32,130 bases of DNA. Source: Phycisphaerae bacterium. Lineage in GTDB: Bacteria; Planctomycetota; Phycisphaerae; UBA1845; PWPN01. Made by a program: the position numbers and the translations under genes. The notes below the pieces were generated by a model that worked only from the letters and a program-made list of their open reading frames with translations, did not search any database and was not told the origin of the DNA. Below, one piece after another: positions 9,241-12,955 of this stretch (position 1 is the first letter of the stretch; the number at the start of each line of letters is the position of its first letter). The stretch covers positions 1 to 32,130 of the forward strand of contig JAAYDF010000053.1 of the NCBI GenBank assembly GCA_012729395.1, in the 5' to 3' direction.

Positions 9241-10311
9241 TCAGTTATTTGTGGAATCGGCCCGGTGGAGGCGCTGGCGGATCAGCTCGGCACGGAACAC
9301 GGAGCGCTTCTCGCCGTCGAGGGGCTGGCCGAGCTGCTTCTGCAGATGGGCGGCCTGGATAGCGATGAACAACTCGTTGATGGCGTCGAGCGAGACGTGC
9401 TTGACGCGGTCCAGCACCACGCCCATGCGCAGGTGCGAAAGGAGGAACAGAGCCTCCTCAGTGCTAATGGTTCGCGCGTTCTCGAGCAGCCCAACCGCAC
9501 GCCAGATCTTGTCGTCCAGAGCGTTGAGCCGATCGCGCTGCAGAACTCGCCTCGCCTCCTGCTCATAGCGGACAATTGAGGGGATCACGTCGGCCTTGAA
9601 GCCGGTAAGAATCTCCTGCTCGCTACGGCCCAACGTGGTCTGATTGGACACCTGGAAGAAGTCGCCGAGGGCGTCGGTGCCTTCGCCGTACAGGCCGCGA
9701 ACCGCCAGGCGCATATCCTTGGCCGCCCGAAAAACCTTCTCCAACTCGTTGGTCAGCTTCAGAGCGGGCAGATGCAGCATGACCGAAACGCGCAGCCCCG
9801 TCCCGACGTTGGTCGGGCAGGCGGTCAGGTACCCGTAACGCTCGTGAAAGGCAAACCGGACCAGTGCCTCGATGGCGTTGTCCACGCGGATGGTCTCGGT
9901 CCAGGCGTCGTCAAGGTTGAGCCCGCGGCGGAGGACTTGGATGCGCAGGTGGTCCTCCTCGTTGATCATCAGGGCGAAGGTCTCAGACTGGGCGATGGCG
10001 ACACCACGACTGCCTTCCGCGTCGGCGTGCTGGCGGCTGATCAAATGCCGCTCGACGAGCAACTGGCGGTCGAGCGGATCCGTCTTGTCGATGTCGACAT
10101 AGAAGGTTTTCTGCCCCAGGTTGCAGACCGAGATGGCCTCGAAGAGCACACGCTCGATCTCCGTCCGATCAGCCCGCGAAGCCCGGCTCAGGAACGAATG
10201 CCCCTCCAGGTTGCGAGCCAACCGGACGCGGGAGGAGATCACCACGTCGTTCATCGGCCCGCCGGTGGCGAGCCATTCTCCCGTCGAGCGTGCGAGATCG
10301 TCGATACTCAT
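9241..10311 (-). CDS. mcsB: Protein arginine kinase McsB (ATP:guanido phosphotransferase)
   Basis: A 356-residue guanido-kinase-fold protein. The signature is clear: CPTNVGTGLRVSVMLHLP with Cys165, the NEEDHLRIQ loop at about residues 117-125, and the N-terminal SSRVRLARNL. In Bacillus, McsB phosphorylates arginines on damaged proteins and marks them for ClpC-ClpP. The start overlaps the mcsA stop as ATGA, so both are translated together. Length matches Firmicute McsB (about 350-360). The metazoan N-terminal domain of creatine/arginine kinases is absent, supporting McsB over a metabolic phosphagen kinase. Neither ctsR nor clpC is beside it, unlike the Bacillus ctsR-mcsA-mcsB-clpC operon, so control may differ. 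Confidence 0.92.
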   Translation of the reverse strand: MSIDDLARSTGEWLATGGPMNDVVISSRVRLARNLEGHSFLSRASRADRTEIERVLFEAISVCNLGQKTFYVDIDKTDPLDRQLLVERHLISRQHADAEGSRGVAIAQSETFALMINEEDHLRIQVLRRGLNLDDAWTETIRVDNAIEALVRFAFHERYGYLTACPTNVGTGLRVSVMLHLPALKLTNELEKVFRAAKDMRLAVRGLYGEGTDALGDFFQVSNQTTLGRSEQEILTGFKADVIPSIVRYEQEARRVLQRDRLNALDDKIWRAVGLLENARTISTEEALFLLSHLRMGVVLDRVKHVSLDAINELFIAIQAAHLQKQLGQPLDGEKRSVFRAELIRQRLHRADSTNN

Positions 10312-10796
10312 GACTGCTTGTCCAACTCCGCCAGTTGATCGCGCAACTCGGCAGCCCGCTCGTAATCCTCAGTCTCGACGGCATCCCGGAGCTGCCGTTG
10401 GATCAAGAGCCGCTTCTGCAAAACCGGATCGAAGGGGATGGATTCGCCGGGCCGCTTACCTGTGTGCTGAAGCTGCCCGTCCTGGGCCCGCTGAATCACG
10501 TTGGCCAGCGCCTCGCCAAAGGCGTCGTAGTCCTGAGGACAGCCCAGGAGACCCTGGCTGCGGAACTCGACGAAGGTCATACCGCATTCGGGGCACTTGA
10601 GTTGGGCGAGTTCCTGCACGGTGGCCTGCGACATCAGAAAGGAGTTGAGGACCTCGTTGATCGAGACCTGCTGCTTGACCGTGATGCCCTCCTCGCTCGC
10701 ACAGCGCTGACAGAGGTGCCTCTCGCGCTTCTCCCCCTTGACGAGGTCCGTCAGGTGGATGGTGGCCTCGTGTTTCTTGCATCTTTGACAAAGCAT
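10308..10796 (-). CDS. mcsA: McsA-like zinc-binding activator with UVR motif
   Basis: A 162-residue protein with paired cysteines C3/C6 and C29/C32 (MLCQRCKKHEAT, HLCQRC), a second CPECG...GC set in the middle, and a C-terminal UVR motif (QLRDAVETEDYERAAELRDQL). This is the McsA layout: zinc-binding N-terminus plus a UvrB/C-type helix pair. McsA activates McsB kinase and senses thiol or metal stress in Firmicutes. The ATG at 10796 is chosen because the first CxxC follows directly; the longer upstream frame is unlike the family. The stop overlaps the mcsB start. A promoter candidate lies about 150 bases upstream. Confidence 0.88.
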   Translation of the reverse strand: MLCQRCKKHEATIHLTDLVKGEKRERHLCQRCASEEGITVKQQVSINEVLNSFLMSQATVQELAQLKCPECGMTFVEFRSQGLLGCPQDYDAFGEALANVIQRAQDGQLQHTGKRPGESIPFDPVLQKRLLIQRQLRDAVETEDYERAAELRDQLAELDKQS

Positions 10797-10948
10797 GGCG
10801 ATGAAAAGGCTCCCCGACCAAGGGGTGGACGCACACCTTACCATGCGTCCCGAAAACCATCGGGCGGAAACCCCTCCGGCTTGAACCCAAGAGCCGCCGA
10901 ACACCCCAACCAGTGCGGTCATGACGGCTTATGGGACGCACCTACTTT

Positions 10949-10977
10949 ATGTTAGGTTGCGGCGGCGGAAGCGTCAA
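10949..10977 (-). promoter_or_regulatory. Candidate promoter of mcsA-mcsB
   Basis: On the minus strand TTGACG (10972-10977) is followed after exactly 17 bases by TAACAT (10949-10954). Five of six and four of six positions match sigma70 consensus. It would leave a leader of roughly 145 bases before mcsA. I see no CIRCE element in the leader. Confidence 0.45.
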
Positions 10978-11066
10978 CCGGGCGGCTTGCCAGCTCAGTA
11001 CGACAGCGATGTGTCACGGCGACCGCAGCCGCTGGCGGCCGCTACGCGAGAACGCCATCCAGGCTG

Positions 11067-11432
11067 TCATGCCAGGTAGCTGGCGAAGCAACCGGGCTCC
11101 TCCTCGACCCGCAACTCGACCAACGGCGCGTCCGGACCAAGAGCCGCCCGGACCGCCTCGAACAAACAGCGTGCGACATTCTCCGCGCTGGGGTTTGCAC
11201 CCGCCAAACGGGGTACTGTCCCAAGATCGCGGCCGACCAGGGAACCGGTCACGGTATGGAGCACCTGCCGCACCCGCGTGAAGTCCACCAGGACGCCGAT
11301 CGCGTCGAGCTGCTGCCCACGGAACACCGCCTCGATCAACCAGTCGTGCTCGTGCGGCGGCTCTCGCCGACCGTCGTACATCCGCAACCCATGAGCCGCC
11401 CGAAATCGATGCTGGACCCGCACTTCATACAT
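11067..11432 (-). CDS. 6-pyruvoyl/6-carboxy-tetrahydropterin synthase family protein with Glu in the Cys position
   Basis: A 121-residue single-domain T-fold protein. The zinc-binding histidines are visible as His14 (FRAAHGL), His27 and His29 (EPPHEHDW), and the C-terminal Glu region appears as VELRVEEEPGC. In QueD the catalytic Cys sits a few residues before the HxH motif; here that segment is GRREPPHEHDW and holds no Cys. Glu24 occupies the E-x-x-H-x-H arrangement described for the PTPS-III subgroup, which makes 6-hydroxymethyldihydropterin for folate instead of the queuosine precursor. HEH also replaces the usual HGH. Either a PTPS-III-type folate enzyme or a divergent QueD is possible. 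No queC, queE or fol genes are adjacent. Its start codon is 14 bases from trpE. Confidence 0.8.
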   Translation of the reverse strand: MYEVRVQHRFRAAHGLRMYDGRREPPHEHDWLIEAVFRGQQLDAIGVLVDFTRVRQVLHTVTGSLVGRDLGTVPRLAGANPSAENVARCLFEAVRAALGPDAPLVELRVEEEPGCFASYLA

Positions 11433-11446
11433 GTTAGGATACTCGC

Positions 11447-12955
11447 ATGGTACGCTACTTCCCTGATCTTAACGAGTTCGAGCGTCTCGCCCAGCGCGGC
11501 AACACCGTCCCCGTATACTGCCAACTCCTGGGCGACAACCTGACCCCGGTGACCGCCTTCGCCGCCATTGCCGAGGACAGCCCGCACGCCTTCCTGCTGG
11601 AGAGCGTGGTCGGCGGGGTGGACGTGGCCCGCTACTCGTTCTTGGCGGCCCACCCACAGGTCATGTTCGAGGCGACCGGCGATCGGGTTACGCTGGATGG
11701 CCCTCAGGGGCGTCAGGAAGAGACTTGCCCCGACCCGCTGACAAGGCTCGCGCAGTTGCTGGGCTCGTATCGAGCGGTACACCTGCCGCAACTGCCACGC
11801 TTCGCCGGTGGGATCGTCGGGTACGCGGGCTACGACAGCGTGCGGTACTACGAGCCTTTGCCAAACGCGCCGCCGGACGACCGACACCTGCCCGACCTGC
11901 TGTTCAACCTCTACGACACTATGGTCGTTTTCGACCACGCCTACAAGACCATCCTGGTTATCAGCCATGCCCATGTTGAGGCCGAGGGCGTACGCGGGGG
12001 ATACGAGCGGGCCTGTGAACGCATCGAGGCAATGGTCCAACGGTTGACAGCCCCGCAGGCCACGCGAGTCAGCCGCATCAACCGCATGGGCGACCCAAGC
12101 CTCGCGTTCTCGAGCAACTTCCAGCAGGCGGAGTTCGAGAAGGCCGTCGAGGCGTGCAAGGAGTACATCCGGGCCGGCGACATCTTCCAGGTCGTGCTCT
12201 CTCAGCGGCTGCTGGTGAAAACGGCGGCCGACCCGTTCGACATCTACCGGGCACTGCGGGTGGTGAACCCCTCGCCGTTCATGTTCTATCTCAAGAGCCC
12301 ACGGGTGATCCTCGTAGGGGCATCGCCGGAAATCATGTGCCGGGTCGAGGACGGGGTCATCACCAACCGGCCGCTGGCGGGAACGCGCCCTCGCGGGCGG
12401 GACGATCAGGAAGACCTGCGCCTCGAGGAGGAACTGCTGGCCGATCCCAAAGAGCGGGCGGAACACATCATGCTCGTCGACCTGGGACGCAATGACGTCG
12501 GGCGGGTGGCTGAACTGGGCAGCGTCGAGCTGCGCAAAGTCATGACCGTTGAGCGATACAGCCACGTCATGCACATCAGCAGCACGGTGCGGGGCAAACT
12601 GGCCGCAGGGATGAGTTCTTTCGATGCGTTACGGGCCTCGCTGCCGGTCGGCACGGTCAGCGGTGCACCGAAGGTGCGGGCGATGCAGATCATCGATGAG
12701 TTCGAGCCGACGCGCCGCGGGCCGTATGCCGGCGCCGTGGGCTACGTCGATTTCGCGGGGAATATGGACACTTGCATCGCCCTGCGGACGATCGTCATCA
12801 CACCCGGAGATACGTTCGGCAAGCACCACGCCTACGTGCAGGCCGGCGCGGGCATCGTCGCCGACTCGCAACCCACGATGGAGTACCAGGAAACGATCAA
12901 CAAGGCGAAGGGCTTACTGCGAGCCATCGAAATCGCAGAAACGCGGTTCCAGTGA
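11447..12955 (+). CDS. trpE: Anthranilate synthase component I TrpE
   Basis: A 502-residue chorismate-utilising enzyme. With the glutamine amidotransferase TrpG it converts chorismate to anthranilate, the first step of tryptophan synthesis. The N-terminal regulatory half contains LLESVVGGVDVARYSFL, the tryptophan-binding LLES motif typical of TrpE. The catalytic half shows ITNRPLAGTRPRG, DLGRNDVGRV, PVGTVSGAPKVRAMQIIDE and GAGIVADSQPTMEYQET. The length is normal. ATG 11447 follows AGGA with a 7-nt gap. No trpG or other trp gene follows; 660 bases of repeats do. PabB is the main alternative, but the LLES motif and the length favour TrpE. Its promoter must lie within the divergent pterin synthase gene. 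Confidence 0.93.
   Translation: MVRYFPDLNEFERLAQRGNTVPVYCQLLGDNLTPVTAFAAIAEDSPHAFLLESVVGGVDVARYSFLAAHPQVMFEATGDRVTLDGPQGRQEETCPDPLTRLAQLLGSYRAVHLPQLPRFAGGIVGYAGYDSVRYYEPLPNAPPDDRHLPDLLFNLYDTMVVFDHAYKTILVISHAHVEAEGVRGGYERACERIEAMVQRLTAPQATRVSRINRMGDPSLAFSSNFQQAEFEKAVEACKEYIRAGDIFQVVLSQRLLVKTAADPFDIYRALRVVNPSPFMFYLKSPRVILVGASPEIMCRVEDGVITNRPLAGTRPRGRDDQEDLRLEEELLADPKERAEHIMLVDLGRNDVGRVAELGSVELRKVMTVERYSHVMHISSTVRGKLAAGMSSFDALRASLPVGTVSGAPKVRAMQIIDEFEPTRRGPYAGAVGYVDFAGNMDTCIALRTIVITPGDTFGKHHAYVQAGAGIVADSQPTMEYQETINKAKGLLRAIEIAETRFQ

Follow-up and report, generated by a model that had tools for sequence, protein, structure and literature searches.

A Glu-type pterin synthase without the Cys-Asp-His triad, probably replacing FolB in folate synthesis of a Phycisphaerae bacterium

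The locus and its PTPS gene

The window (the whole stretch of 32,130 nucleotides that was analysed) is contig C6 of a Phycisphaerae assembly of 5.74 Mb in 370 contigs, with 99.55% completeness and 3.43% contamination. A PTPS gene on its reverse strand is followed by two genes that we presume to be mcsA and mcsB. The features are as follows.

9241..10311, (-): mcsB-like ATP:guanido phosphotransferase gene (PF00217, 222 bits), with a 4-base overlap with the mcsA-like gene
10308..10922, (-): mcsA-like gene with a UVR motif (PF02151), just downstream of the PTPS gene
11067..11432, (-): gene for a Glu-type PTPS (probable PTPS-III variant), 121 aa, ATG start, PF01242 match
11088..11102, (-): E111-E-P-G-C115, with E111 in 214/216 and C115 in 204/216 Glu-type relatives
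11232..11237, (-): Val66-Gly67, where QueD/PTPS carry the catalytic Asp-His pair (as LDH)
11346..11363, (-): E24-P-P-H27-E28-H29, with Glu24 in the role of the catalytic Cys and HEH as the HxH zinc motif
11391..11393, (-): His14, the first of the zinc ligands, in 216/216 Glu-type relatives

The PF01242 (PTPS) match of the window protein (85 bits, E 5e-24, cut-off 22.4) is far over the cut-off and the reading frame is therefore not a chance one. PTPS is the sole family named by Pfam, and the FolB family PF02152 gave no match. The best NCBIfam match is the QueD model TIGR03367, but at 50.4 bits against a cut-off of 89.25, and the wider 6PTHBS model scores 29 bits, below its cut-off of 125.5.

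The zinc histidines of PTPS align with H14, H27 and H29, Glu24 is located three residues before H27 (REPPHEH), and there is no Cys at positions -4 and -6 from H27; in these three respects the sequence-only reading, which had described intact zinc histidines, an absent Cys and Glu24 in an ExxHxH arrangement, was correct. Its assignment of the protein as PTPS-III-like is well supported, with some reservations. The PF01242 domain with three zinc histidines and the Glu replacing Cys (Exx before HxH) agree with PTPS-III, as does the placement in the tree, but the strict signature ExxHGH, as given in the available part of PMC5041015, is missed by one residue (ExxHEH) and Val66-Gly67 occupies the place of the Asp-His pair that is found in the archaeal PH0634. 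The protein agrees with none of the other subfamilies: it has neither the CxxxHGH motif of QueD (PTPS-I) nor a TIGR03367 score over the cut-off, no Cys for the CxxxxxHGH motif of PTPS-II, which is carried instead by a paralogue on contig C93, and REPPHEH where the PTPS-I/III hybrid has CExxHGH. Glu in position 111 is presumably the residue that anchors the pterin, a role that we take from rat PTPS; Cys115 follows four residues later, away from the catalytic Cys position.

Conservation of the active site and loss of the Asp-His pair

The class sample consisted of 298 genomes, with matches to the window protein in 260, to FolB in 47 (39 over the cut-off) and to HPPK in 282. PTPS sequences were typed in 237 genomes, giving 216 with the Glu type, six with the Cys+Glu type and 15 weak matchers, whose copies were all of the Cys type apart from one (L071) that ends before the motif. 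Overlapping HxH motifs were typed by hand (L162/G146 as Glu; G360, G300, G475 and G511 as Cys; L056/G219 as CxxxHGH), and G149 and G243 gave split PTPS matches.

H14, E24, H27 and H29 are invariant in the alignment of the 216 Glu-type homologues of the class sample, and together with the near-invariance of E111 this indicates that the site is under selection. One of 64 Glu rows in a second alignment has Ala in position 24, which, given the invariance of E24, is taken as an alignment artefact. The middle residue of HxH is much less constrained (Gly in 122, Glu in 29, Ser in 17, Ala in 13, and any of 13 further amino acids in the last 35), so that the HEH form, presented in the sequence-only reading as a further change, is a real variant of HGH but not a rare one.

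The catalytic triad of PTPS is reportedly formed between subunits (Burgisser 1995, cited in PMC2229834). Generally, the members of this triad are taken to be Cys, Asp and His. The Asp-His pair is present at the triad position in 23/23 Cys-type copies of the class sample (CxxxHGH 13/13, CxxxxxHGH 10/10) and in 5/6 of the Cys+Glu type, but in 0/216 of the Glu type, of which 21 have a swapped His-Asp at this site; across all 37 aligned Cys-type copies, with either CxxxHGH or CxxxxxHGH, the pair is kept. Loss of the Cys and loss of the Asp-His pair thus go together in the Glu type, a change that the sequence-only reading had overlooked and of which our literature search found no description for Glu-type PTPS. 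The loss is not absolute, because L003, a single relative from a scan of genome contigs and outside the set of 216 proteins, is of the Glu type and retains LDH. In one further protein (L139, genome G059) a CExxHGH motif is nested in the Glu-type clade together with a swapped His-Asp, that is, the Cys site is filled without Asp-His.

The loss of Cys, Asp, His and strict HGH could also be the mark of a degenerate, inactive PTPS relic in genomes where another enzyme replaces FolB. The invariance of E24 and the zinc histidines, the retention of E111 and the near-exclusion with FolB described below make such a relic very unlikely. The survey of the FolB step covered FolB and PTPS; other FolB substitutes are of a transaldolase-like or an archaeal type.

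A conserved Cys elsewhere in the active site had been named beforehand as an observation that would count against the Glu-type assignment. No Cys occupies the catalytic position; Cys115 is conserved elsewhere. Considering that a Cys is found at this position also in the Cys+Glu types (6/6 in the class, 23/30 outside) and in Cys types, it is not a marker of a replaced Cys; nor can it serve as a marker restricted to the Glu type, since 8/14 Cys-type copies outside the class have it.

Folate and queuosine genes of the host genome

The search of the host genome for FolB gave no match, while 10/14 control genomes were matched. HPPK (C330), FolE (C259) and FolP (C345) are present, and among the folate steps searched FolB alone is missing, which is the gene content expected where a PTPS-III is used. 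The absence of FolB beside FolE, HPPK and FolP, together with the near-exclusion in the class, supports the bypass of dihydroneopterin aldolase that the sequence-only reading had put forward as a possibility.

Two PTPS matches were found, the window gene and the copy on C93, which forms the C-terminal part of a 276-residue two-domain protein and is of the Cys type (CxxxxxHGH) with an intact DH; the second, Cys-bearing PTPS whose presence was to be checked therefore exists. QueC is present as well (C327), and the C93 copy would be available for the queuosine branch. A two-domain PTPS is also seen at L001:1489-2319 (-), where the N-terminal half looks degenerate and the other half is of the Cys type (CxxxxxHGH), and similar frames occur in several other genomes.

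Distribution of FolB in the class and the rest of the phylum

In the counts of FolB 38 of the 47 matches were used, after exclusion of a partial match of 32 bits in a 394-aa frame (G221) and of eight matches below the cut-off (G026, G078, G104, G115, G145, G157, G234 and G237). Where a Glu or Cys+Glu type is present (222 genomes), FolB is absent from 220 and present in two; where neither type was found (53 genomes), FolB is present in 36 and absent from 17. For this table of 275 genomes, treated without correction for relatedness, the Fisher p value is 1.2e-29. A further 23 genomes with a strong match to the window protein, outside the table, have FolB in 0/23.

Among the 17 genomes with neither enzyme, listed completeness is below 90% in 14, 90 in two (G057 and G236) and 97 in one (G137). 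In the last, the Glu type and FolB are both missing, and a PF01242 profile search, run on this genome only among the 38 without a match to the window protein, found one Cys-type copy. The two genomes with both enzymes are G285 (Glu type, L061/L070), which is the only FolB-bearing one of the 216 Glu-type genomes, and G218 (Cys+Glu type, L052/L069); they are possibly transitional or redundant cases.

Both states, the Glu or Cys+Glu type and FolB, occur within 10 of the 19 families tabulated, and the swap has therefore probably happened several times; the families outside this table (f9, f10, f17, f18, f20, f24, f26 and f27) contain no full FolB. Two HPPK matches were found in 27 genomes, 25 of which are FolB-positive, and at locus L034 folB is directly followed by a folK-like frame (named by eye), which suggests that folB and folK are often acquired together.

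Across the phylum 294 genomes were searched, the class included, and from the genomes whose match positions were listed, 50 that lie outside the class were typed. These comprise 30 of the Cys+Glu type (seven with FolB), six of the Glu type (none with FolB) and 14 of the Cys type (five with FolB). The Asp-His pair is present in 30/30 of the Cys+Glu type and absent in 5/6 of the Glu type, the sixth (G322) keeping DH and grouping with the Cys types. FolB exclusion is thus not seen for the Cys+Glu hybrid, which fits a dual role: the hybrid would tolerate FolB beside it because, according to the accessible text of PMC5041015, it is able to serve both pathways.

Tree and structure model

A quick IQ-TREE run was made with 144 sequences and 124 columns, with SH-aLRT support only and a midpoint root, and 59 of its 141 inner branches are weak. 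In this tree the window protein pairs with L005, an HGH relative from its own family with 55% identity, in a Glu group of 71 rows with support 90, which includes the archaeal PH0634 and one Cys+Glu row. The main Cys+Glu group (32 rows, support 88) adjoins it. A separate group of 41 rows with support 95 holds all 37 Cys types, three Cys+Glu rows and one Glu type; three of the 30 out-of-class Cys+Glu copies group among the Cys types. Clustering of the window protein with Cys-type QueD, the outcome named beforehand as contrary to the assignment, is therefore rejected, since it falls in the Glu group and the 37 Cys-type rows all belong to the other.

The fold model, built from two sequences (the window protein and L003), has a pLDDT of 83.8, and its structural matches are QueD (Z 14), PH0634 (Z 13.9) and the Plasmodium enzymes (Z 11-12). 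The model confirms the PTPS fold and not the function.

The possibility should be considered that the window protein is an ordinary QueD of the queuosine pathway, or a PTPS-II, in which another residue such as Cys115 has taken over the role of the Cys. The QueD model is its best NCBIfam match, Cys115 is widely kept and QueC is present in the genome. Nevertheless, the score stays below the model's cut-off, a Cys-type paralogue in the genome could fill that role, the protein stands apart from the Cys-type rows of the tree, Cys115 also occurs in types that keep the catalytic Cys, and the exclusion of FolB would be left unexplained; taken together, these points make this reading very improbable.

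Proposed function

The motif and the gene content lead us to consider it very probable that the window protein serves folate synthesis alone, as a PTPS-III-like enzyme that would make FolB unnecessary. Its substrate would be 7,8-dihydroneopterin triphosphate, the product of FolE. Zinc held by H14, H27 and H29 would bind the side-chain hydroxyls, E111 would anchor the pterin ring, and Glu24 would act as the catalytic base instead of Cys; cleavage of the side chain would then yield 6-hydroxymethyl-7,8-dihydropterin for HPPK, with no need for FolB. We infer this reaction, the roles of the residues and the order of the losses. It is proposed that the Asp-His pair drifted away because the pair activates the Cys and would become superfluous when Glu takes over as base, and the Glu type is probably derived from a dual-function ancestor, with the whole triad dropped.

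A more far-reaching version can be put forward tentatively, and we hold it to be less likely than not: the protein may be a minimal dihydroneopterin-triphosphate aldolase that has discarded Cys-Asp-His and cleaves the C-C bond with zinc and Glu24, possibly helped by Cys115, which would donate the proton in a new role next to the Glu that binds the pterin, and it may be the standard folate enzyme of the class, repeatedly displaced by FolB.

The kind of enzyme is already known, because both a Plasmodium PTPS with Glu for Cys (PMC2229834) and a PTPS-III that replaces FolB (PMC3223725) have been published. In the available part of PMC2229834, wild-type PfPTPS yields both 6HMDP and the ordinary pterin product, the substitutions Glu38Cys and Glu38Gln leave only the latter and Glu38Leu leaves neither; the excerpt of PMC3223725 states that FolB is replaced by PTPS-III in many bacteria, and that of PMC4674097 (2015), citing earlier work, that folB is absent from Planctomycetes genomes. 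The PTPS-III call made by PMC4674097 in Rickettsia is disputed in the accessible portion of PMC5615194, and the motif itself must therefore be read.

With PTPS-III (PfPTPS 1Y13; PH0634 2DJ6/2DTT; COG0720 subfamily) the window protein shares the fold, the zinc histidines and Glu for Cys (ExxHxH), and PTPS-III users are known to be FolB-less, as is the host genome. Two differences are apparent. First, PTPS-III has HGH where the window protein has HEH; second, PH0634, an archaeal protein which by its ExxHGH motif we read as PTPS-III, retains LDH, whereas the window protein is without Asp-His. The PTPS-I/III hybrid (CExxHGH) shares Glu24 and mostly Cys115, and its main group is sister to the Glu group, but it keeps Cys, HGH and nearly always Asp-His, and can coexist with FolB. 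QueD/PTPS-I and PTPS-II have the same fold and zinc site and differ by the Cys motif and Asp-His. For FolB dihydroneopterin aldolase the predicted product is the same, and the structural match of Z ~7 may mean only a common arrangement.

As far as our literature search shows, two things are new: the triad-less variant, in which HxH is also relaxed, and the finding that this type and FolB nearly exclude each other across the class. The variant offers a natural test of the residues that PTPS chemistry needs: in settings that seem to require the folate product alone, all three triad residues are lost together, and zinc and Glu are retained. If the proposed function is true, naming such proteins 6-carboxytetrahydropterin synthase is wrong for most of the class, and an essential step has, in several lineages, changed hands between two enzymes that are not related.

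Gene neighbourhood

Of the 148 Glu-type loci of at least 6 kb, 73 have a co-directional mcsA relative downstream, with a median gap of about 77 bp (the gaps are approximate, as they were taken between the PTPS match and frames delimited by stop codons), and among the loci where it was found the orientation is never reversed. This linkage raises the alternative that the gene belongs to a McsA/McsB protein-arginine-kinase operon and has a pterin role there instead of in folate synthesis. The linkage went undetected in the other loci, some of which are cut by contig ends, yet E24 and the zinc site are invariant throughout, and the near absence of FolB from Glu-type genomes also speaks against such a role, to which we would give very little credence.

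To our knowledge, no pterin takes part in McsAB function. A folate gene cluster around the PTPS gene was considered and rejected: among the recurrent neighbour families listed (clusters in at least 12 loci, named by eye) no folate genes stood out, the conserved ones being mcsA, mcsB and coaD. The gene context is thus neutral for the folate reading, which draws its support from the motif and the gene content.

In 29 of the 148 loci the gene directly upstream is coaD-like, as judged by eye. The run ptps-mcsA-mcsB (9241-11432, -) is conserved, in some relatives with the coaD-like gene upstream, and no link between pterins and protein-arginine kinase is obvious. The starts of the PTPS gene and trpE are divergent with 14 bases between them (11432-11447), and a divergent trpE lies upstream in 15 other Glu-type loci as well.
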